NCBI GenBank assembly: GCA_024653205.1
Contig: JANLFO010000002.1
Span: 149,590 to 183,247 of the forward strand
DNA length: 33,658 nt
Direction of reading: 5' to 3'
DNA from: Clostridia bacterium
GTDB taxonomy: Bacteria; Bacillota; DSM-521; Neomoorellales; SLTJ01
The notes under the pieces are model-generated. The model did not search any database. It was given only the letters and a program-made list of their open reading frames with translations, and had not been told where the DNA came from. Shown in pieces: positions 21,275 to 33,314 of the stretch; position 1 is the stretch's first letter; every line of letters begins with the position of its first letter. The translations under genes and the position numbers were made by a program.

Positions 21275-21742
21275 ATGACGTTATTTTCCAGTCAGCGAAG
21301 ACCACGCCCCGTGCGTGCCGGACTGATCACCATGCTTATTATAGCCATAGGTTGGGCGGCGGGGGAAGCGGCAGTTCTTCCCTATTGGCCGCAAGGAGAA
21401 CGGGTGCTGGGAACCGTGGGCTGGGTGGTAGCGGTCTTTGCCGGCTGCTCGGTGGCGCAGGCGAAGGCACGCGGGATCCGCTTTTCCTACCCGGCCGAGC
21501 GGGTAGCCCTGGCGGCAATGGGCCTGGCGGCGGCGGGAGAACTGGCCGCAGCCGGGATAGGGTGGGGTTCAGGCCCGGATTGGGCAGACTCGTTGTTGCG
21601 GGCGGGTCTCGCTGTCCTGGCGATGGCGGCTGCGGTGAGAGTGGCGGGAATGGCGGTAAAGGCGAGGAGGACGAGCAGGTATGAAGCTTACGCCCAACGC
21701 ACTTACTATATTGGAGAAGCGCTACTTAAGGAGAGAGAATAA
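21275..21742 (+). CDS. Small hypothetical membrane protein overlapping nrdJ
   Basis: This 155-residue protein has about four hydrophobic stretches (LITMLIIAIGWAAGEAAVL, VLGTVGWVVAVFAGCSVA, VALAAMGLAAAGELAAAGI, and a fourth near 110-127) and a short basic end. The ATG at 21275 follows AAGGTGA at 6 nt, which supports translation. Its last 62 nt overlap the nrdJ start in another frame, so the two genes are probably translationally coupled. I do not recognise the family. An upstream partner of nrdJ could be expected to serve B12 supply or regulation, but nothing in the sequence shows that. Confidence 0.6.
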   Translation: MTLFSSQRRPRPVRAGLITMLIIAIGWAAGEAAVLPYWPQGERVLGTVGWVVAVFAGCSVAQAKARGIRFSYPAERVALAAMGLAAAGELAAAGIGWGSGPDWADSLLRAGLAVLAMAAAVRVAGMAVKARRTSRYEAYAQRTYYIGEALLKERE

Positions 21743-24700
21743 CCGGCTGGTGGAAACGCCCGAGGAGATGTTCCGGAGGGTAGCCCGGGCGGTGGCGGCC
21801 GCCGAGCGCATATTCCGGCCGGACATTGGCGAAGCAGAACTGGCCGCGATCGAAGACAAGTTCTACACGCTGATGACCGAACTCGACTTCCTGCCCAACA
21901 GCCCCACCCTCATGAACGCCGGTAGGGAACTGGGGCAGCTTTCCGCCTGCTTTGTCCTCCCGGTAGGGGATAGCATGGAAGAGATTTTTACCGCGCTCAA
22001 GGACGCCGCCCTCATACATAAGTCCGGCGGCGGCACGGGCTTCAGCTTCTCCCGGCTGCGCCCCAAGAACAGCCCGGTGCGCAGCACCGGCGGGGTGGCA
22101 TCGGGCCCGGTTTCCTTCATGAAGGTCTTCAACGCCGCCACCGAGGCCATAAAGCAGGGGGGCACGCGCCGCGGTGCCAACATGGGCATGCTGCGGGTGG
22201 ACCACCCGGACGTTCTGGAGTTCATTCGAAGCAAGCGGGATAACCGGGAACTGACCAACTTTAACATCTCGGTTGCCCTCACCGGGGAATTCATGCAGGC
22301 GCTGGAAAACGACGACTACTACGAGCTCAAGTTCAACGGGCGGGTATACGACCGGCTGAAAGCCCGTGAGGTGTTCGACCTCATCGTTGAGCATGCCTGG
22401 GCCAACGGCGAGCCGGGCATAGTGTTCCTGGACCGGCTGAACGAGGGCAACCCCACCCCCGAACTGGGCGAGATCGAGGCCACCAACCCCTGCGTGACCG
22501 GGGATACGTGGGTAACCACCAGTGAAGGCCCCCGCCAGGTGTGCGAGCTGGTGGGCCGTCCCTTTGAGGCGGTGGTTAATGGGGCAGCTTACCGCTCGGG
22601 CAGGGAAGGCTTTTTCCGCACGGCGGTAAAACCGGTCGTGAGGCTACGTACCCGGGAAGGTTATAGCCTGCGCCTGACCTCAGACCACCGGCTCTTGCGC
22701 GTAGTTGACCGCACCCGCTACCGTATCAGTTACGAGTGGGTACCGGTCAAGGAGCTGAAGCCCGGCGACCAGATACTCCTGCATAACCACCGGTCCCTGG
22801 CGGGCTGGCCCGGCGAACTTACCGAGGGCGAAGGGTACCTACTCGGCCTCCTGGTGGGGGACGGGGTACTGAAAGAGGACACCGCCGTTCTTTCGGTTTG
22901 GGCAAGAGAACAGGCAGTGCCCGGCTTGACCTCAGAGAGTGGCGCGGGCTCAATTATGGAACTGGCCTTGAGCTATGCTGTGAACCTGCCTCACCGTTCC
23001 GGCTTTCGCGGCTGGTTTCCGATTTCCGGGCGCAGTGAATTCCGCCTTAAATCCGCGCCTCTGAAGACGCTGGCCGAGCGCATGGGCCTGCGCCCGGGCA
23101 AGAAGACGGTTACCCGGGAAATAGAACGCGCCTCATCCGAGGGTTACCGGGGTTTCTTGCGTGGCCTCTTCGACAGCGACGGCTCGGTGCAGGGAAGTCA
23201 GGAAAAAGGCGCTAGTATTCGTCTTGCTCAAAGCAACCTTGAGCTTCTCAAGGCCGTCCAGCGTATGCTCCTTCGCCTGGGGATTGTGAGCACCGTATAT
23301 GAGGAACGACGTCCGGTCGGCGCAAGACCCATGCCGGATGGCAAGGGAGGCAAGCGCGATTATGACGCAAAGGCCCAGCATGAACTGGTTATCTCAGGGG
23401 ATAACCTGGCTGCCTTTGCGGCACGCATCGGCTTTGGCGACCGGGAAAAGGCGGAGAAACTCACCCGGCTTCTCGGTGCCTACCGGCGCAAAATGAACCG
23501 GGAAAAGTTCCTGGCTACGGTCTTATCCGTGGAGGAGGAGGGAGTAGAGGAAGTATACGATGTCCGAATCCCCGGCGTCAACGCTTTCGACGCCAATGGA
23601 ATCTATGCCCACAACTGCGGGGAGCAGCCGCTTCTGCCCTACGAGGCCTGCAACCTGGGCTCGGTGAATCTGGCCCAGATGGTGGAAGACGGGCGCATCG
23701 TGTGGGATCGACTCAAAGAGGTGGTAGCCTGGTCGGTGCGGTTCCTGGACAACGTCATCGAGGTCAACCGCTACCCTCTCCCGACCATCGAGCAACTGGC
23801 CCGGGGCAACCGCAAGATAGGGCTGGGCGTAATGGGATGGGCGGACATGCTCTTCCGTTTGGGCGTGCCCTACGACAGCGAGCAGGCGGTGGAACTTGCC
23901 CGCAAGGTAATGGGGTATATACAGGAGGTAGCGGTGACAACCTCACGTCAACTGGCCGAAGAGCGGGGGGACTTTCCCAACCTGGAACGAAGCATCTACC
24001 GGGGCCAGAGGAGGCGCAACGCCACCTGCACCACCATCGCACCCACCGGCACCATCAGCATGATCGCCGGCACCACCTCGGGAATAGAGCCGGTATTCTC
24101 CCTGGTCTACACCAAGAATGTGCTGGAAGGTGAGCAGCTGCTGGAGATCAATCCGGTATTCGAAGAGTACGTGCGCGGTGCGTTCGAGCCGGCCAAGGCG
24201 GAAAGCATCTTCCGAGAGGTGGCGCGGACCGGCTCCTGTCAGCACATCGGGGATATTCCGCCGGACGTGCGCCGGGTATTCGTAACCGCCCTGGAAATAG
24301 CGCCGGTATGGCATATCCGCATGCAGGCGGCCTTCCAGGAGTATACGGACAACGCCGTGAGCAAGACGGTTAATTTCCCCTACACCGCCACCCAGAAGGA
24401 CGTAGAAGAAGTGTTCCTCCTGGCCTACCGGCTGGGCTGCAAGGGCGTAACCGTATACCGCTCGGGCAGCCGCGAAGAGGAAGTGCTGGTGCGGGGCCAG
24501 GGCGAAGCCAAACCAGGCGGGAAGAAGACCTATCCTCGCCCCCGGCCCAAGCGCACCCTCGGCGTAACCGAGCAGGTCAAGACCGGATGCGGGAAGATGT
24601 ACATTACGGTCAACTTCGATCAGGAGGGCATAATCGAGACTTTCATCACCACCGGCTCTACCGGAGGGTGTCAGGGATTCGCCGAAGGGGTGAGCCGGCT

Positions 24701-25073
24701 GGTTTCCCTGGCCCTGCGGGCCAACATCGCCCCGGAGGCCATTATCGACCAGCTCACCTCGGTCAGTTGCCCCAACTTTCTCCGGCGCCGGGCCAAAGAC
24801 CCCGGCCTGGTGGGCAAGTCCTGTCCGGACATCATCGGCCGCATTCTGGCCCACGAACTGGCGCGTACCGGGGGGGAGAAGCTGGAACAGGCGCTGCGGG
24901 AGGCGCTGGAAGAAACCGTCGTGGCCGCCGAGGACCCGGATAACGGCTGCCGGCCGGCCCCGGTGGACGAACTGGAACTCATTCGTCGCGGCATCTGCCC
25001 GGAGTGCGGTGCGCGGTTGCAGTACAGCGAGGGCTGCCTCGTTTGCCGCTGCGGGTTCAGTCGCTGCGAGTAA
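21681..25073 (+). CDS. nrdJ: Adenosylcobalamin-dependent (class II) ribonucleotide reductase, intein-containing precursor
   Basis: The enzyme reduces ribonucleotides to deoxyribonucleotides with a B12-derived thiyl radical and needs no oxygen. The precursor has 1,130 residues; removal of the intein (271-645) leaves about 755. Visible parts are QLSACFVLPVGDS (first redox cysteine), KSGGGTGFSFSRLRPK and GGTRRGANMGML. The catalytic-loop motif NP|CGEQPLLPYEACNLGSV is split by the intein. Downstream are NRKIGLGVMGWADMLF and APTGTISMIAGTTSGIEP. The C-terminal part carries a TSCPD domain (TGSTGGCQGFAEGVSRLV, TSVSCPNF) and a final zinc-ribbon-like CPECGARL...CRCGFSRC. The ATG at 21681 has GAGGAGG about 10 nt before it and overlaps the preceding gene. 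Splicing is required for activity. Confidence 0.96.
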   Translation: MKLTPNALTILEKRYLRRENNRLVETPEEMFRRVARAVAAAERIFRPDIGEAELAAIEDKFYTLMTELDFLPNSPTLMNAGRELGQLSACFVLPVGDSMEEIFTALKDAALIHKSGGGTGFSFSRLRPKNSPVRSTGGVASGPVSFMKVFNAATEAIKQGGTRRGANMGMLRVDHPDVLEFIRSKRDNRELTNFNISVALTGEFMQALENDDYYELKFNGRVYDRLKAREVFDLIVEHAWANGEPGIVFLDRLNEGNPTPELGEIEATNPCVTGDTWVTTSEGPRQVCELVGRPFEAVVNGAAYRSGREGFFRTAVKPVVRLRTREGYSLRLTSDHRLLRVVDRTRYRISYEWVPVKELKPGDQILLHNHRSLAGWPGELTEGEGYLLGLLVGDGVLKEDTAVLSVWAREQAVPGLTSESGAGSIMELALSYAVNLPHRSGFRGWFPISGRSEFRLKSAPLKTLAERMGLRPGKKTVTREIERASSEGYRGFLRGLFDSDGSVQGSQEKGASIRLAQSNLELLKAVQRMLLRLGIVSTVYEERRPVGARPMPDGKGGKRDYDAKAQHELVISGDNLAAFAARIGFGDREKAEKLTRLLGAYRRKMNREKFLATVLSVEEEGVEEVYDVRIPGVNAFDANGIYAHNCGEQPLLPYEACNLGSVNLAQMVEDGRIVWDRLKEVVAWSVRFLDNVIEVNRYPLPTIEQLARGNRKIGLGVMGWADMLFRLGVPYDSEQAVELARKVMGYIQEVAVTTSRQLAEERGDFPNLERSIYRGQRRRNATCTTIAPTGTISMIAGTTSGIEPVFSLVYTKNVLEGEQLLEINPVFEEYVRGAFEPAKAESIFREVARTGSCQHIGDIPPDVRRVFVTALEIAPVWHIRMQAAFQEYTDNAVSKTVNFPYTATQKDVEEVFLLAYRLGCKGVTVYRSGSREEEVLVRGQGEAKPGGKKTYPRPRPKRTLGVTEQVKTGCGKMYITVNFDQEGIIETFITTGSTGGCQGFAEGVSRLVSLALRANIAPEAIIDQLTSVSCPNFLRRRAKDPGLVGKSCPDIIGRILAHELARTGGEKLEQALREALEETVVAAEDPDNGCRPAPVDELELIRRGICPECGARLQYSEGCLVCRCGFSRCE
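22491..23615 (+). mobile_element. Intein with LAGLIDADG homing endonuclease, inserted at the NrdJ active site
   Basis: The 375-residue insert begins with Cys1 (CVTGDTWVTTSEG, codon 271) and ends ...GIYAHN before Cys+1 (codon 646). Removing it restores the family motif NPCGEQPL. Splicing blocks are present: A (CVTGDTWV), B (LTSDHRLLRV, the TxxH motif), F (VYDVRIPGVNAFDANGIYA) and G (HN|C). Two dodecapeptides, LLGLLVGDG (near 387) and LRGLFDSDG (near 492), mark a two-motif homing endonuclease, both with the catalytic aspartate. The element therefore looks able to splice and possibly to home. The extein cysteine at the junction is the expected thiyl-radical residue. Confidence 0.95.
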
Positions 25074-25098: not shown

Positions 25099-25965
25099 TT
25101 GCGGTTCGGTCCTGCCGGAGCTTCTCCCCTTTTTTACGCTCAGGGAGGCAAGAGCAGTCTTGAGGTTCCGGCCTGGCTGCACCGGCTGGGCCTGGAGGCT
25201 TTCGAGTACCAGTGCGGCCGCGGGGTAAACATAAAGGAAGACACCGCCCGGGCTCTGGGCCGGGAGGCAGGACGCTACGGCCTGGCCCTGAGTCTGCACG
25301 CTCCCTACTACATCAACCTGGCCGCCGAAGGCCCCGGCAGGGAGAATACCCGCCGGCACCTGCTGCGGGCGGTGGAGGCGGCCGCCTGGATGGGAGCGAC
25401 CAAGGTGGTGTTCCACCCCGGCGCAGCAGGGACGGACCGCAGGCGCTCTCTGGAACTGGCCCAACGCCTGCTGGAGGAGGTCGTGGCAGAAATAGATCGG
25501 CCGGAGTTTGACGGCGTACTCCTGGCCCCCGAGACCACCGGCAAGGCCGGCCAACTGGGCTCCCTGGCGGAGGTTCTGGCCCTCTGCCGGGGGCGGACCC
25601 GGGTTGTACCCACCCTGGACTTCGCTCACCTCTATGCCCGGGACGGGGGGCGGCCGGCCAGCGAGGAGGATTTCGCCCGCGTCCTGGAAGCGGTGGCCGA
25701 GAGCCTGGGAGCACAGGTCCTGCACGACCTGCACCTGCACTTCAGCCCCATCGAGTTTACCCGGGCGGGTGAGAGGCGACACGGCAATCTCCTGGACCCC
25801 GGTCTGGGTCCGGACTTCGTGCCCCTGGCCAGGGCCCTTTGTGCCGCCGGAGCGGACGGCACCTTGATCTGCGAATCTGCCGACCGCCAGGCGGAGGACG
25901 CGCTGGCCTACCAGGAAGCGTGGCGCCGAATAGCAGAAGGAGGTAAGGGAAATTGTCCCCGGTGA
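25099..25965 (+). CDS. TIM-barrel protein of the AP endonuclease family 2 (Nfo / sugar phosphate isomerase-like)
   Basis: The protein has 288 residues. The barrel motifs are RFGPAG, GLEAFEYQCGRG, SLHAPYYINLAA (metal His), TKVVFHPGA (His), LLAPETTGK (Glu), PTLDFAHLYAR (Asp, His), HDLHLHFSPIEF (His) and LICES (Glu), which together give the pattern of metal-binding residues of Nfo-type enzymes. It may be an endonuclease IV-like DNA repair enzyme or a sugar epimerase; Nfo-like repair is favoured by the HAPYYINLA motif. TTG 25099 is chosen because GAGGTGA lies 7 nt before it and RFGPAG is the usual N-terminus. Open sequence further upstream overlaps nrdJ. Its stop overlaps the 5' part of gltX by 13 nt. 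Confidence 0.8.
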   Translation: MRFGPAGASPLFYAQGGKSSLEVPAWLHRLGLEAFEYQCGRGVNIKEDTARALGREAGRYGLALSLHAPYYINLAAEGPGRENTRRHLLRAVEAAAWMGATKVVFHPGAAGTDRRRSLELAQRLLEEVVAEIDRPEFDGVLLAPETTGKAGQLGSLAEVLALCRGRTRVVPTLDFAHLYARDGGRPASEEDFARVLEAVAESLGAQVLHDLHLHFSPIEFTRAGERRHGNLLDPGLGPDFVPLARALCAAGADGTLICESADRQAEDALAYQEAWRRIAEGGKGNCPR

Positions 25966-27434
25966 GGGTTCGTTTTGCTCCCAGTCCCACCGGAAGTCTT
26001 CACGTGGGAGGCGCCCGGACGGCGCTTTTTAACTGGCTTTTTGCCCGCCATCACGGCGGAGCCTTTGTATTGCGCATCGATGACACCGATACCGACCGCT
26101 CCTCGGAATCGGCCCTGGAGCAGATACTTTCCTCCCTGCGCTGGCTGGGCCTGGATTGGGACGAGGGGCCGGATGTCGGCGGTCCCTACGGCCCCTACCG
26201 GCAGACGGAGAGGCTGGCCCTCTACCGGGAGGCGGCCGAGAAACTGCTGGATGAGGGTCGGGCCTACAGGTGCTACTGCACCCCGGAGGAGCTGGCCGCC
26301 CAGAGGGAGGAGGCCCGCCGCCAGGGCCGCCCTACCACCTACGACGGCCGCTGCGCCCGCCTGAGCCGGGCGAAGCAGCTCGAGCTGGAGGCGCAGGGTA
26401 GGAGGCCGGCAATAAGGCTGAAGGCCGACCGGCGGGAGCCGGTAGTGCTGCACGACCGGGTAAGGGGCGAGGTTGTCTTCCAGCCCGAGGTGCTGGAAGA
26501 CCTGGTCATCGTTAAGAGCAACGGCTATCCTACCTACAACTTCGCCTGCGTGGTGGACGACCACCAGATGGCGATCACCCACGTCATCCGGGCCGAGGAA
26601 CACCTTTCCAATACCCCCAAGCAGGTGCTGGTATATGAGGCCCTGGGTTACCCCCTCCCGGAGTTTGCCCACGTGCCCATGATCCTGGCTCCCGACCGCA
26701 GCAAGCTGAGCAAGCGGCACGGCGCCACTTCGGTAGAGGAATACCGCGAAGAGGGCTTCCTGCCCGAGGCCCTGGTGAACTACCTGGCGCTGCTGGGCTG
26801 GTCGCCGGGCGGGGAGGAGGAGTTTCTGACCTCGCAGGAAATGATCGACCGCTTCTCGCTGGAAAGGGTCTCCAAGAACCCGGCCATATACGATCAGAAA
26901 AAGATCGCCTGGATGAACGGCCACTACCTTACCCGCGCCGATCTGGATCGGGTGGCGCGTCTGGCCCTGCCCTTCTTCGTGGAAATGGGACTGGTGGCAC
27001 CGGGGAACGAGCAAAAGGAATGGGAGCGGGTGCGCGAGGTGGTAGGCCTGGTTCGGGACCGGGTGAAGACCCTCAAGGAGGTGGCCGAGGCCGGCACCTA
27101 CTTCTTCCGCTCGGACTTTACCTACGAGCCGCAGGGGGTGGCCAAGCACTTTGCGGTCCCGGGGCGGGCAGATCTCCTGACCAGGGTGGGCGAGCGGCTG
27201 GCCGAACTGGAGAGGTTCGACGCCGAAAGCGTGGAGCATGCCTGCCGCAGCCTGGCAGACGAACTGGGTGTCAAGGCGGCGGCGATAATTCACTGCCTGC
27301 GCCTCGCGCTCACCGGGCGGACGATGGGCCCGGGCCTGTTCGACATCGTGGCCGCACTGGGCAAGGCGGCTACGCTGGAGCGAGTACAGCGGGCCGTGGA
27401 ATATGTTCGCTCTCTACCACAAAGCGTGAGCTAG
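25953..27434 (+). CDS. gltX: Glutamyl-tRNA synthetase
   Basis: This 493-residue class I synthetase has the HIGH-type motif APSPTGSLHVGG (9-20) and the KMSKS-type motif SKLSKRHG (250-257). It also shows the family segments LRIDDTDTDRS, RCYCTPEELAA and ADHHQMAITHVIRAEEH-like FACVVDDHQMAITHV, and a C-terminal anticodon-binding helical domain ending about RAVEYVRSLPQ. TTG 25953 is favoured by AAGGAGGT at 8 nt. A GTG at 25962 overlaps the upstream stop as GTGA and is the alternative. In Firmicutes this enzyme usually also charges tRNA-Gln with Glu, which GatCAB then amidates. tRNA-Gln lies 222 nt downstream, in keeping with that. Confidence 0.96.
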   Translation: MSPVRVRFAPSPTGSLHVGGARTALFNWLFARHHGGAFVLRIDDTDTDRSSESALEQILSSLRWLGLDWDEGPDVGGPYGPYRQTERLALYREAAEKLLDEGRAYRCYCTPEELAAQREEARRQGRPTTYDGRCARLSRAKQLELEAQGRRPAIRLKADRREPVVLHDRVRGEVVFQPEVLEDLVIVKSNGYPTYNFACVVDDHQMAITHVIRAEEHLSNTPKQVLVYEALGYPLPEFAHVPMILAPDRSKLSKRHGATSVEEYREEGFLPEALVNYLALLGWSPGGEEEFLTSQEMIDRFSLERVSKNPAIYDQKKIAWMNGHYLTRADLDRVARLALPFFVEMGLVAPGNEQKEWERVREVVGLVRDRVKTLKEVAEAGTYFFRSDFTYEPQGVAKHFAVPGRADLLTRVGERLAELERFDAESVEHACRSLADELGVKAAAIIHCLRLALTGRTMGPGLFDIVAALGKAATLERVQRAVEYVRSLPQSVS

Positions 27435-27656: not shown

Positions 27657-27730
27657 TGCGGGATGGTGTAGCGGTAGCACGCGTGGCTCTGGACCACGTA
27701 GCCTAGGTTCGAATCCTAGTCCCGCAGCCA
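27657..27730 (+). tRNA. tRNA-Gln (anticodon CTG)
   Basis: The acceptor TGCGGGA pairs with TCCCGCA (27720-27726), including the weak U1-A72 pair typical of tRNA-Gln; the CCA is encoded (27728-27730). The anticodon stem CGTGG/CCACG (27682-27686 with 27694-27698) encloses CTCTGGA, anticodon CTG at 27689-27691. The T loop is GGTTCGAATCC. Confidence 0.96.
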
Positions 27731-27833: not shown

Positions 27834-29504
27834 ATGCTCATAGGCATTGACGTCGGGGGAACCTACACCGACGGAGCCCTGATTGCCGACGGCCGAATAG
27901 CCTACACCGTAAAGGTGCCTACCCGGCCCGACGAGCTTCTCGCGAGTCTTCTCGGCGTTCTGGACGAAGTCCTTTACCACGCCAATCCCTCCAGGATTCG
28001 CCGGATAGTCTTCAGTACCACTCTCGTGACCAACCTCCTGGCCCAGGAACAACTGGAGCCGGTAGGATTGTTGCTCTTGCCCGGACCGGGGGTCAATCCG
28101 GAACTATACGGTTTCCGCCCGCCCTTGCGCTACCTCCCCGGAGCCATCGACTACCGGGGCCGGGAAATAGTGGGCCTGGACGAGGATGCCGCCCTGAAGG
28201 CCCTGCGGGAGTTGGCGGAAGCCGGCATTGCCAAGGTGGCGGTGGTGGGGAAGTTTTCGCCGCGCAACCCGGCGCACGAGCTGGCGGTTGCCCGCCTCGC
28301 GGCTCAGCATCTTCCCGAACTGGAGGTAGAGGTGGGCCATAAGGCAGCGGGAAGGCTGAACTTTCCCCGCCGGGCGGCCACCACCCGCCTCACGCTGGCC
28401 GTGCGTTCCCGGCACCAATCCTTCCTGGATCAGGTATCCCGGGCCCTGCAGGAACGCAAGCTGGAGGCTCCCGCCTTCCTGCTGAAGGCTGACGGGGGGG
28501 CCCTGCCCCTGGAAATGGCCCGGTCCCGGCCGCTGGAGAGCGTGTTTTCCGGCCCGGCGGCCAGTGCCTTGGGCGGGCTGGCCCTGACCGGTCCTGGGGA
28601 AGACGCGGTGGTACTGGACATTGGGGGGACAACCACCGACCTGGCGCTCATCCTGGACGGTCACCCCCTGCTGGCGAGCAAGGGCATCAGGATAGAGGAT
28701 TACTACACCCAGGTGCGCTCCCTGGCCGTGCGTTCCGTTCCCCTGGGAGGGGATTCGGCGGTCCGGATCCGGGAGGGGCGCCTGCAAATAGGGCCGGAAC
28801 GGTTCGGCCCGGCCTGCTGTTTGGGCGGGCCGGCCCCCACCCTCACGGATGCCATGCGTTGCCTCGGCCTTACTGATCTCGGAGACGGCGGCCGGGCCCG
28901 GGCGGCCATGGCCGAACTGGCAAAGTCCACGGGGGTTTCTCCGGAACAGGTGGCCGGGCAGGTACTGGAGGAGGCGGTAACCGGCCTGCAGGCGGCGGTA
29001 GAGGAAATGTTTCGGTCCTGGGAGGAGGAGCCCGCCTACCGGATATGGGAGATCGTGCGCGGACGAAAGGGGCGGCCGAATAAGGTGGTGGGACTGGGCG
29101 CGGCGGCCCCGGCACTGGTGCCCCAACTGGCACAAGAGATGGGCTGCCGGGCGTTGGTGCCGCAGCATGCCGCCTCGGCCAACGCCATCGGCGCCGCCCT
29201 GGCCAGGCCCACGGTTTACATCACCCTCCACGCGGACACCGAGCGCGGCTTTTACAGCGTGGAGGAGACCGGGGTTTACTCGAAGCTGCCTCAAACCGAC
29301 CGCCTCAGCCTGGAGGACGCGTGCTCGCTGGCCCGGGAGCATCTGGACTCCGAGGCCGCCCGCATGGGAGTGAACGAGGGGGAGCCGGAAGTGCTTTACG
29401 CCGAGGGATTTAACCTGGTACGGGGCTGGCACACTACCGGCAGGATATACAGCGTGGTAATGCAGCTTGCACCCGGGCTGGTGCAGGAGCTGGCGGAGGA
29501 ATAA
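27834..29504 (+). CDS. Hydantoinase/oxoprolinase (HyuA-like) family protein
   Basis: The protein has 556 residues. It opens with the ASKHA-type phosphate loop IGIDVGGTYTDG, has RIVFSTTLVTNLLAQ (the STT.TN motif of the family), a middle VVGKFSPRNPAHE, the sugar-kinase-like SVFSGPAASALGG, and the second nucleotide loop VVLDIGGTTTDLALI. Family members open cyclic amides such as hydantoins or 5-oxoproline using ATP. It is shorter than most HyuA proteins (about 650-700 residues), and no HyuB partner follows. The ATG follows AGGGTGA at 9 nt. The next gene, a deacetylase-family amidohydrolase, starts 2 nt after its stop. Hydrolysis of a C-N bond by both is likely, but the substrate is unknown. Confidence 0.85.
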   Translation: MLIGIDVGGTYTDGALIADGRIAYTVKVPTRPDELLASLLGVLDEVLYHANPSRIRRIVFSTTLVTNLLAQEQLEPVGLLLLPGPGVNPELYGFRPPLRYLPGAIDYRGREIVGLDEDAALKALRELAEAGIAKVAVVGKFSPRNPAHELAVARLAAQHLPELEVEVGHKAAGRLNFPRRAATTRLTLAVRSRHQSFLDQVSRALQERKLEAPAFLLKADGGALPLEMARSRPLESVFSGPAASALGGLALTGPGEDAVVLDIGGTTTDLALILDGHPLLASKGIRIEDYYTQVRSLAVRSVPLGGDSAVRIREGRLQIGPERFGPACCLGGPAPTLTDAMRCLGLTDLGDGGRARAAMAELAKSTGVSPEQVAGQVLEEAVTGLQAAVEEMFRSWEEEPAYRIWEIVRGRKGRPNKVVGLGAAAPALVPQLAQEMGCRALVPQHAASANAIGAALARPTVYITLHADTERGFYSVEETGVYSKLPQTDRLSLEDACSLAREHLDSEAARMGVNEGEPEVLYAEGFNLVRGWHTTGRIYSVVMQLAPGLVQELAEE

Positions 29505-29506
29505 CC

Positions 29507-30859
29507 ATGGGGACCAATATGGGACTGGTTTTCTTCCCGGCCTTCGACTGGGCCATTTCTCCCACCCATCCGGAGAGAGAAGAAAGGCTTCTGTATACCA
29601 AGGATCAGCTTTTTGAGGAGGGCGTGCTGGACTTTCCCCAGATCCGGGAGTACAAGGCCGAGCCCGCCTCGCCCAAGGACGTCGCTCGGGCGCACTTTTG
29701 CGTTCCGGACGTGTCCGCCCAGGCTACGGAGGCGCACCTGATTGCCGCCGGCGCCACCCTGGTGCTGGCCCGGGCCCTGTGCCAGGGCGAAATCGATCGG
29801 GGTTTTGCGCTGGTAAGACCGCCCGGGCATCATGCCATGCGGGTGGCACACGGAAACCGGGGCTTTTGCAACATCAACAACGAAGCCATCATGGTGGAGT
29901 ACCTGCGTCGCCACTACGGCTTCCGGCGCCTGGCCATCGTGGATACCGACGTGCACCACGGCGACGGCACCCAGGACATCTACTACAACGATCCCGACGT
30001 GCTCTACATTTCCTTTCACCAGGACGGCCGCACCCTTTATCCCGGGTCGGGCTTTCCCGAAGAGGTGGGGGGACCGGCCGCCGGCGGTTACACCCTCAAC
30101 GTGCCGTTACCGCCGGGCACCACCGACGAGGGCATTCACTTCGTGCTGGACGAGTTCATCCTCCCGGTGCTGGAGGAATTCTCGCCGGAACTGGTAATCA
30201 ACTCGGCCGGCCAGGATAACCACTACACCGACCCCCTGGCCAACATGGCCTTTTCTGCCCAGGGCTACGCCCGCCTGAACGAGAAGCTGAAGCCCCACCT
30301 GGCGGTGCTGGAAGGCGGGTATGCCATTGAGACTGCCCTACCTTATGTCAATCTGGGCATAATCCTGGCCATGGCCGGTCTGGACTATTCCTGGGTCCGG
30401 GAGCCGGACTATCCGCGAGGCGGGCTGAGCGAGCCGGCCGGCATCCGGCCCTACCTGAAGGAGCTGGTGGAGCGCCTTTGGAGCCTGTGGCGCCGCCGTG
30501 GCAGCATTATGGACGGCAGCTTCAGGCGGGAAGGCGACTTCTACCGCCGCAGCCGCTCCATATACTACGATACGGACCAGATACGCGAATACCAGGAGGA
30601 GAGGGTGCGGCATTGTTCGGGCTGCCCGGGGTACACGCTGCTTTCTTCCCGGGCCCGGCGGCCCGGCCGGGAAGAGGTGGCGATATACGCGGTGTCCATA
30701 CCCTGGCAGGCCTGCCCGCGCTGCCAGGACGAGGCACGGGAGGAGTACGATCGTGCCGTTTCCAGCCCGGGCGCGCACCGCTACCTTTACCTGCAGGACA
30801 AACCCCGGGATACCTATCTCTGCTTTGATGCCCGGACCGGGGTAGAGACGCCCTGCTGA
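29507..30859 (+). CDS. Histone deacetylase-family zinc amidohydrolase with a four-cysteine C-terminal extension
   Basis: The core (about 1-300) has the arginase/deacetylase fold motifs: RPPGHHAM (H108, H109), the zinc loop VDTDVHHGDGTQ (D148, H150), the third zinc ligand in SAGQDNHYTDP (D237), and the catalytic tyrosine Y272 in LEGGYAIETALPY. Bacterial members include acetoin-utilisation AcuC and acetylpolyamine amidohydrolases. About 150 extra residues follow, containing CSGC (C370, C373) and CPRC (C403, C406), a likely zinc-ribbon-like module. The ATG has GGAGGA 6 nt before it, and the gene is 2 nt after the HyuA-like gene. The product is probably cytosolic; no signal peptide is seen. The substrate is unknown. 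Confidence 0.9.
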   Translation: MGTNMGLVFFPAFDWAISPTHPEREERLLYTKDQLFEEGVLDFPQIREYKAEPASPKDVARAHFCVPDVSAQATEAHLIAAGATLVLARALCQGEIDRGFALVRPPGHHAMRVAHGNRGFCNINNEAIMVEYLRRHYGFRRLAIVDTDVHHGDGTQDIYYNDPDVLYISFHQDGRTLYPGSGFPEEVGGPAAGGYTLNVPLPPGTTDEGIHFVLDEFILPVLEEFSPELVINSAGQDNHYTDPLANMAFSAQGYARLNEKLKPHLAVLEGGYAIETALPYVNLGIILAMAGLDYSWVREPDYPRGGLSEPAGIRPYLKELVERLWSLWRRRGSIMDGSFRREGDFYRRSRSIYYDTDQIREYQEERVRHCSGCPGYTLLSSRARRPGREEVAIYAVSIPWQACPRCQDEAREEYDRAVSSPGAHRYLYLQDKPRDTYLCFDARTGVETPC

Positions 30860-30951: not shown

Positions 30952-31055
30952 AATCGATCACGCCAACCGCTAAGGGCAAACCCGCCGAAAGACGGGGGCG
31001 CAAAGCCGCGGGCCTAAGTCCTCCGGGATATGGCAGCCGGGCTGCCGGGGAAGAT
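30952..31055 (+). promoter_or_regulatory. Cyclic di-GMP-I (GEMM-I) riboswitch aptamer
   Basis: The conserved core reads ATCACGCC..TAAGGGCAAACC, a stem CCCG...CGGG with a GAAA tetraloop, GGCGCAAAGCC, then GGGCCTAAG and the second arm GGCAGC-CGG-GCTGCC (31032-31046). These are the landmarks of the GEMM-I aptamer: the ligand-binding guanine in AGGGCAAA, the tetraloop and the receptor strand. It lies in the leader of a chemoreceptor gene, a known target class for this riboswitch. GATCAC (30956-30961) is complementary to GTGATC (31068-31073), which could compete with closing of the aptamer stem. Confidence 0.93.
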
Positions 31056-31153: not shown

Positions 31154-31173
31154 GGAGGGGGTGAGAGATGTAG
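31154..31173 (+). promoter_or_regulatory. Ribosome site with start-stop (ATG-TAG) in the leader
   Basis: GGAGGGGGTGAG (31154-31165) is followed at normal spacing by ATG (31168-31170), which is directly followed by TAG (31171-31173). The best ribosome site of the leader therefore opens a one-codon frame. The same stretch can pair weakly with CCCCCT at 31130-31135. Confidence 0.5.
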
Positions 31174-31230
31174 CTACGGAGTTGGTGTATTCGGACCGGC
31201 GGAGATGCGTTCTGCTGTCCAAACCCAGGG

Positions 31231-31267
31231 AAGGAGGTATAGGTCGCCTAGAGAAAAATCAGGCGAC
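31231..31267 (+). promoter_or_regulatory. Strong Shine-Dalgarno followed by a hairpin before the chemoreceptor start
   Basis: AAGGAGGT (31231-31238) has no ATG, GTG or TTG in the receptor frame at normal distance. A perfect 7-bp hairpin follows (GTCGCCT 31243-31249, loop of 11 nt, AGGCGAC 31261-31267), and the GTG at 31275 comes 7 nt after it. When folded, the distance from ribosome site to start shrinks to about 11 nt. Confidence 0.5.
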
Positions 31268-31274
31268 GACAAGA

Positions 31275-33314
31275 GTGAAAATAATCGGATTGGGAAGCAG
31301 TATCAGAACCAAGATCAGTATGGTAGTGGCGTTGATCCTTATAGCCGGGTGCGTGGCGCTATGGTACATGGCCGAGGACCAGGCCGGCAGTGCTCTGGAG
31401 GCCGAGGCGAAAGAGGCCATGCTCAAGGTGGCAAAGCAGGTCGCCGAGACCCAGGACAGCCGCGTGCAGGCCCGTATGTACGTCGTGGAATCACTTGCCA
31501 ACCGCAGCGTGATCCGCGGCCAGTTAGGCGACCGAGAGTCAACGCTTGAGGAGAAACTGCAGGTGCTTCGTGAGGAATTGGAGACGGCAAAGGAGCTGGG
31601 GTTCAAGGAATTTACTCTCGTTGACCGCGAAGGCAACGGCCACATATGCAACGGCGGAACCGTCCAGGTAGCGGACAGGGATTATTTCAAGACCGCCATA
31701 AGCGGGAAGAGCTGTGTATCCAGCACCATCATCAGCAAGGCCGATGGGTCGGTGATTTTTGCCTACAACGCACCCGTGCGTCACTATCAGACCAACGAAA
31801 TCATAGGGATATTGAGCGGGATAGTTGACGGGGCTAAGTTCAGCGAACTGGTAGGCAGCGTAACCTACGCCCAGACCGGGTACGCCTTTGCCGTGGACGG
31901 CGCGGGCAAGATGATCGCGCACCGCGATGTGGAGAGCGTGACTTCCCAGGCCAACTACCTGGAGCAAGCCAAGTCCGACCCATCCTTGGATTCACTGGCA
32001 GGCGTTATTTCGAAGATGATCGCCGGAGAGGAAGGTGCGGGAAGCTACACCTTTGAAGGCGTCGACAAGCTTTGCGCCTACGCTCCCATTGGCACTACGG
32101 GCTGGTCGGTGGCGGTAACCGCTCCCAGGGACGAAGTGCTGGCACGGGCAGGTGGACTGAAGCGCTCGATGCTGCTGATCAGCGCGATAGTGATCTTCGC
32201 CGCAGTGATGCTGGTCGTTCTTTTCATGCGAAGCATGACCGCCGGCATAACCGCAGCCGCGGCCCACCTGGGGGTCATAGCCGAGGGCGACTTTACCCGA
32301 ACAGTACCGGAACGGCACCTGCGCCTCCGCGACGAGGTAGGGAAGATGGCCCGCGCGGTGGACGAAATGCAGAACAGGATGAAGGCGCTTCTCTCAGGGA
32401 TAAAGGAGGATGCCAAGACCCTGGCCCAGAGTTCGGAGACCCTGGGCGCAGCCTCGGAGGAAATAGCCGCCTCCAGCGGCGAGGTCGCCAAAGCCATCCA
32501 GCAGGTGGCCGCAGGCGCTTCCGACCAGTCCGGGCACCTGCAGGACATATTGCGACTGGCGGAAGACATGGCTTCCAGCCTGGAGCGGGTACGCGCGGAG
32601 CTGGAGAAGGTCAGGGCCAACAGCGAGGAAAGTTCAAAGCTTGCCGACGTGGGCAAGAAGGAACTGGACCTTCTGGTCAACTCCATCCGGGCAGTGCGGG
32701 AATCGTTCAACACCGTAACCGAAAGGCTCTCCGCCTTAAGCGGGTCGGTCAACCAGATAGGCGAGATCCTGGAAGTAATCAACGGGATCGCCGACCAGAC
32801 CAACCTGCTGGCCCTCAACGCGGCCATCGAGGCGGCACGGGCCGGCGAGGCGGGCCGCGGCTTTGCCGTGGTGGCGGACGAGGTGCGGAAACTCGCCGAG
32901 CAGTCCCGGGCCTCCTCGGACAAGATCAGGGACCTGCTGACCAGCATCGGCTCGGAAACCTCGGAAGTGGTCAGAACCTCAAACGACACGGGGCAGCAGG
33001 TGGCCTCGCAGCTGGAAAAGGCGGAGAAGACCATCAAGGCCTTCGACAACATCCTGCAGGCGGTGGCGGCCATAGTGCCCATGATCGAGGCTACCTACCG
33101 CGAGGTGGACGCCACCGTAAAGGCCAAGGACACAGTGCTGGACCGGGTGCAGAGTGTGAGCGCGGTAGCGGAAGAGGCCGCGGCTTCCTCCCAGGAGATC
33201 TCCGCATCGGCCGAGGAGCTTTCCGCCTCCACCGAGGAGATCGCCTCCGGCGCTCAGGAGATCATGAGGGTGGCCAGGCGCCTGGAAGAGCAAGCGGAGC
33301 GGTTTAAGGTGTAA
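31275..33314 (+). CDS. Methyl-accepting chemotaxis protein with a dCache-type sensor
   Basis: The receptor has about 679 residues from GTG 31275. TM1 is about 14-33 ([18 protein letters not shown]). The extracellular double-Cache sensor runs to about 290 ([65 protein letters not shown]). TM2 is 299-321. A HAMP-like region and a long cytoplasmic coiled coil follow, with the signalling tip [20 protein letters not shown] (505 on) that binds CheA/CheW. The start is uncertain: the frame is open to GTG 31161, but that start has no spacing from its ribosome site, while 31275 gives the usual short cytoplasmic N-terminus. No chemotaxis operon is nearby. Expression is probably under c-di-GMP control through the riboswitch. 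Confidence 0.93.

Follow-up and report, generated by a model that had tools for sequence, protein, structure and literature searches.

The window, a DNA stretch of 33,658 nucleotides, carries two open reading frames on its forward strand, at 27834–29504 (gene 1, 556 amino acids) and 29507–30859 (gene 2, 450 amino acids), which encode a short HyuA-type protein and a protein of the histone deacetylase (HDAC) fold. Two nucleotides separate the stop codon of gene 1 from the ATG of gene 2, as a preliminary description made from the letters had it, and a GGAGG stretch read within the final codons of gene 1 lies at a suitable spacing from that ATG, so that the two genes look translationally coupled. 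Upstream lie a class I tRNA-synthetase gene of the Glu/Gln type (25953–27434) and tRNA-Gln (27657–27730), and downstream a c-di-GMP-I-GGC riboswitch (30966–31050) followed by a chemoreceptor gene with a dCache domain (31161–33314). With tRNA-Gln on one side and the riboswitch and chemoreceptor on the other, the pair forms its own two-gene unit. No HyuB gene lies near it, which bears out another point of that description, and the only PF02538 match of the genome (C4:57882–59552) is on a different contig, beside its own HyuA. Further upstream in the window, a ribonucleotide-reductase-like frame of 1,130 amino acids (21681–25073) includes an apparent in-frame intein (protein splicing) block, as read from its translation.

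The features of the two genes are as follows.

27834–29504, + strand: gene 1, short HyuA-type (hydantoinase/oxoprolinase A) ASKHA ATPase, 556 amino acids (open reading frame, Pfam, profile match to CapA/ApcA/NMHase, model compared with the PDB over residues 1–556)
27849–27872, + strand: phosphate-1 motif DVGGTYTD, residues 6–13 (D6 in 131 of 132 aligned rows)
28617–28640, + strand: phosphate-2 motif DIGGTTTD, residues 262–269 (D262 in 132 of 132 rows)
29013–29069, + strand: HyuA insert, residues 394–412, adjoining the helix that matches the partner-contact helix of CapA (profile alignment; helix N as given in the available part of PMC8453981)
29507–30859, + strand: gene 2, HDAC-fold zinc amidohydrolase, 450 amino acids (open reading frame, Pfam, PDB match, predicted model)
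29828–29833, + strand: catalytic His pair H108–H109 (135 of 135 rows)
29942–29959, + strand: D146, D148, H150 and H151, charge relay and zinc ligands by homology (each in 135 of 135 rows)
30206–30223, + strand: AGQDNH signature, residues 234–239, with zinc ligand D237 (D237 in 135 of 135 rows)
30320–30322, + strand: catalytic Tyr Y272 of LEGGY (135 of 135 rows)
30614–30724, + strand: four-cysteine cluster of the C-terminal domain, CxxC (370, 373) and CxxC (403, 406)

A short HyuA-type ATPase and an HDAC-fold partner

Gene 1 matches the Pfam families Hydant_A_N (6.3e-29) and Hydantoinase_A (1.3e-41) and reaches the cut-off of no NCBIfam model. Its predicted model (pLDDT 89.8, pTM 0.87) aligns over residues 1–556 with residues 6–618 of the 691-residue CapA chain (Z 27.2, 6.2 Å, 520 residues) and with the alpha subunit of acetophenone carboxylase (Z 29.0, 3.5 Å, 494 residues); the ASKHA reactivases 1hux and 7yyl are among the weaker structural matches. 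Residue 556, the end of the chain, aligns to CapA 618, and the CapA barrel (623–696, limits from the available part of PMC8453981) has no counterpart, so the protein is indeed shorter than usual, as first described. In the profile alignment, residues 367–391 stand opposite CapA 415–439, and the family-specific insert follows directly. Within the 132-row alignment of the family, K140, K218 and D220 are each conserved in 131 rows and D307 in 130, whereas L199, the canonical HyuA encoded in the window's genome, carries L, Q, S and G there. The nearest HyuA relatives outside the pair family (L202, L203 and L204) are 640–690 amino acids long and have KGDG and GGDS signatures in common, and no HDAC gene was seen beside them in these three loci, where frame starts were read. 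A HyuA-like protein is also reported from glycine betaine methyltransferase clusters, according to the available part of PMC9768040.

For gene 2, Hist_deacetyl (PF00850, 2.3e-69) is the only Pfam family matched. On the question of an acetylpolyamine amidohydrolase or AcuC subgroup, NCBIfam returned nothing at an E value of 0.1 and the PDB matches were of several kinds. In the predicted model (pLDDT 85.7), residues 4–331 align with the HDAC-like amidohydrolase 1zz0_A (Z 35.3, 2.6 Å, 314 residues), and the nearest folds are those of HdaH and Kdac1. The residue roles listed above are those that we presume from alignment to HDAC6 and from general knowledge of the family. At the sequence level, the AGQDNH motif distinguishes the family from six other HDACs that we aligned, four of which have AGFDxH and two HGCDSH in its place: Q236 and N238 are found in 134 of 135 family rows and in none of the six, while Q172 is common to four of them. 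Every one of the 109 long-form pairs has all four C-terminal cysteines, which probably form a metal site; the domain that holds them has no Pfam match above cut-off (best Zn_ribbon_TFIIB, E 0.11) and no noteworthy PDB sequence match, and the fold search hardly covered residues 334–450. Near the N terminus, conserved residues of about 14–26 were modelled with pLDDT below 50 and may become ordered only with the partner.

Gene 2 thus resembles HdaH, Kdac1 and the acetylpolyamine amidohydrolases in its fold and in its catalytic set of HH, DxH, D and Y, and differs from bacterial HDAC-family amidohydrolases in AGQDNH, in the four-Cys domain and in its constant HyuA companion. With the catalytic set complete and the fold nearest HdaH/Kdac1, it could be a lysine or polyamine deacylase, which the HyuA-type ATPase would regulate, recycle or load. 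Enzyme reactivation is known from other ASKHA ATPases, and the matches to 1hux and 7yyl point the same way. Abundant acyl-lysine has been reported in a syntroph, but the same acylome paper, in its available part, names a sirtuin and no such HDAC (PMC9676460). As Q236 and N238 of the active-site loop are absent from the six other HDACs aligned, we consider this deacylase role unlikely.

Pairing across bacteria and archaea

The preliminary description turned on how often the two families are adjacent in other genomes, and relatives do retain the pairing. With the HDAC alone as bait against a genome collection, a HyuA gene lies directly upstream on the same strand in 80 of 80 loci (the best 80 of 576 confirmed), which include Syntrophomonas, Desulfotruncus, Desulfovirgula, Thermincola, Methanosarcina and Methanothrix. 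In a sample of 199 genomes from the window's phylum, the subfamily HyuA occurs in 80 and the subfamily HDAC in 80, and these are the identical 80 genomes. For these counts, HyuA matches no stronger than about 1e-52, which belong to other HyuA kinds, were excluded, except for fragments at the same loci, as were generic HDAC matches below the subfamily gap (for example G002, 2.9e-57, 44%); a further genome draw that partly overlaps the phylum sample was left out. All 80 pairs are adjacent on one contig and one strand, although for G103, counted via a 180-residue HDAC fragment at a contig end and identified by adjacency, that observation is circular. The order is HyuA–HDAC in 79 of them, the exception again being G103, where the HDAC is upstream with a 149-residue frame between, and the gap is mostly below 150 nucleotides. 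An apparent gap of 788 nucleotides in G068 stems from a split HyuA match, the second piece of which ends 38 nucleotides from the HDAC. Four entries of the sample are partial (G083, G096, G135 and G138), and in-frame stops occur in the HyuA of G118 (TAG) and the HDAC of G117 (TAA).

Among 148 archaeal genomes, some of which we take to be Archaeoglobi, 44 hold the HyuA and all 44 of these also hold the HDAC, adjacent in 29 and unlinked in 15; two of the adjacent pairs have touching or overlapping ends. The HDAC search (query L121) found other, weaker HDACs in 55 further genomes, which were left out of this count, and among the archaeal HDACs, G294 has a copy with two stops and G223 a partial one. 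That both genes are retained even where they are unlinked speaks against mere hitch-hiking, and the adjacency is not chance. The HyuA and HDAC trees of 100 loci (FastTree) are congruent, with a Spearman correlation of patristic distances of 0.92, a value to which shared species history contributes and which, taken alone, does not prove interaction. Together, adjacency, unlinked co-retention and congruent trees strongly support that the two proteins act in one process, and to that extent the pathway first proposed, ring opening of a cyclic amide followed by deacylation, is partly borne out; its chemistry is not the most natural reading, as set out below.

Of 120 pairs compared, 109 carry the HyuA insert beside the helix that matches the CapA contact along with the HDAC Cys domain, and the other 11 carry neither, which speaks for the two-component reading given below. 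The split roughly follows one bacterial-type and one archaeal-type lineage, however, and may reflect few events, or a single one. No fused HyuA–HDAC protein (Rosetta stone) was found among the loci clustered, in which two clusters remained separate; the long HDAC frame of G068 (819 residues) is, by its coordinates, out of frame with its HyuA. In the HyuA tree, going by FastTree topology alone, the copies from Methanosarcina and Methanothrix fall within bacterial ones. Among the matches listed, the HDAC of the window is closer to HDACs from certain Syntrophomonadaceae and from Methanosarcina, at about 64–68%, than to those from six genomes of its own order, at 54–60%. This pattern of sequence similarity, with the position just after tRNA-Gln, hints at a horizontal gain of the window's pair.

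Genomic context and functional leads

MutS and/or MutL genes accompany the pair in 36 of the 49 bacterial loci among the best 80 of 576, in 9 of 40 phylum-sample loci and in 0 of 31 methanogen loci. The typical order is miaB–small gene–mutS–pair–mutL–miaA, where mutS and mutL were assigned by Pfam and miaA and miaB by reading frames; many syntrophs and Desulfotomaculum-like bacteria have the pair inserted between mutS and mutL. In three archaeal loci (L123, L124 and L183), an endonuclease V gene overlaps the HDAC, with the HyuA elsewhere in those genomes. These neighbours would suit a role in a nucleic-acid or nucleotide lesion or modification, the HyuA-type protein activating a base lactam and the HDAC cleaving a base amide, but the mutS/mutL context is missing from 31 of 40 phylum-sample and all 31 methanogen loci, just 3 of 146 loci have endonuclease V, and the window's pair sits between tRNA-Gln and a chemoreceptor gene without any such context. 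Such a role is therefore improbable, and we treat both contexts as leads and not as evidence for repair. Beyond mutS and mutL the neighbours vary and point to no pathway, and no constant third gene was linked to the pair in the loci clustered.

Acetyl-CoA synthase (PF03598) is encoded by 40 of the 80 pair genomes and by 22 of the 119 genomes without the pair (odds ratio 4.4, p = 4e-6, uncorrected for relatedness). Dependence on the Wood–Ljungdahl pathway is ruled out, as half of the pair genomes lack this enzyme.

Also quite improbable is that the pair is a stand-in 5-oxoprolinase, opening 5-oxoproline at the expense of ATP in place of PxpABC. PxpABC does have an ATP-using component and a metal hydrolase, with a lactam substrate (available part of PMC8453981), an outline that the pair shares, and PxpA (PF03746) is missing from the window's genome at an E value of 1e-20. 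However, neither gene 1 nor gene 2 has a PF03746 match, and PxpA and the pair are no clean complement: of the 80 genomes with the pair, 19 encode PxpA, against 44 of the 119 without the pair (odds ratio 0.53, Fisher p = 0.06, uncorrected for relatedness).

A candidate two-component amidohydrolase

What is seen directly at these loci, namely the two genes with their motifs and predicted folds, a near-absolute pairing and the absence of HyuB, can be set against the HyuA/HyuB lactamases CapAB, OplAB and N-methylhydantoinase. As in these, gene 1 has the ASKHA kinase fold with both phosphate motifs and a linked second protein carries a zinc-type site. Whereas the Hydant_A_N and Hydantoinase_A domains of the lactamase–carboxylase family are present, the C-terminal barrel and HyuB are missing and the partner is an HDAC instead. 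The preliminary description took both families to cleave C–N bonds, which does not carry over to CapAB: there, ATP serves the HyuA-type subunit solely to activate the lactam, cleavage takes place at the zinc site of the HyuB-type subunit, and CapA contacts CapB through helix 418–438 and an omega loop (available part of PMC8453981).

The ATP motifs of the HyuA and the catalytic residues of the HDAC are intact in the alignments. Gene 1 keeps the activating half and gene 2 brings a zinc-type site, and this, with the division of labour in CapAB, leads us to favour one enzyme with an exchanged hydrolytic half. By analogy, the pair would be a two-component ATP-dependent amidohydrolase in which the HDAC stands in for HyuB, a reading that we put forward tentatively, at somewhat less than even chances. 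The HyuA-type protein would bind ATP and activate the carbonyl of a small-molecule amide or lactam, probably by O-phosphorylation, and the HDAC-fold protein would take the role of the missing HyuB, its zinc-bound water cleaving the activated C–N bond. We infer that the proteins touch, that they share a single common substrate, that ATP phosphorylates that substrate, and to which class it belongs.

Adjacency and co-retention are equally expected from two successive steps of a pathway, in which the HyuA-type protein alone would open or activate a cyclic amide and the HDAC would then deacylate the product. Conserved linkage fits such a pathway just as well, and bacterial HDAC-family enzymes do deacetylate small molecules such as acetylpolyamines (available part of PMC8556138). 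The HyuA-type subunit of CapAB, on its own, has no cleaving site, however (available part of PMC8453981), and by the same comparison a HyuA without HyuB would not be expected to open a ring alone. Nor is there a linked HyuB, or a constantly linked third gene to supply or use an intermediate. A zinc hydrolase in the place of HyuB suggests a single two-component reaction, and we hold two separate steps to be rather unlikely.

If the two proteins are one enzyme, as we tentatively favour, an ATP-coupled mode is added to the HDAC fold, a large number of annotations are mistaken, and a conserved step of syntrophs, sulfate reducers and methanogens can be tested in methanogens that serve as genetic models. 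Against this reading, ordinary amide cleavage by HDACs requires no ATP. More broadly, the pair could represent a third architecture of ATP-dependent amide hydrolysis, in which a HyuA-type kinase and an HDAC-fold zinc hydrolase swapped in for HyuB are obligate partners among anaerobic bacteria and archaea and carry out a widespread housekeeping step; we give this wider proposal slightly less credence than the two-component enzyme itself, and it would entail an HDAC-fold member that acts only on an ATP-activated substrate. The pair recurs by itself, as two genes alone, at many unrelated sites, and so probably serves anaerobes for housekeeping or for clearing damage. Each of the two families is already known and it is their constant combination that is new: in agreement with the preliminary description, which did not recognise such a pathway as described, a literature search, judged by titles and abstract openings and covering few subscription papers, returned no description of it. 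The two proteins are linked as tightly as subunits of one enzyme in 80 of the 199 phylum-sample genomes and in methanogens including Methanosarcina, and the names hydantoinase and histone deacetylase are probably misleading for them.

A parallel is offered by the S-Me-THD (PF06032/PF20906) pairs, in which a HyuA of about 520 amino acids likewise lacks HyuB and has a different partner (3 of 3 loci looked at). Their HyuA is just 25–27% identical to gene 1, and gene 2 has no PF06032 match and belongs to another Pfam family; by analogy, S-Me-THD beside a short HyuA would be a precedent for a partner other than HyuB.
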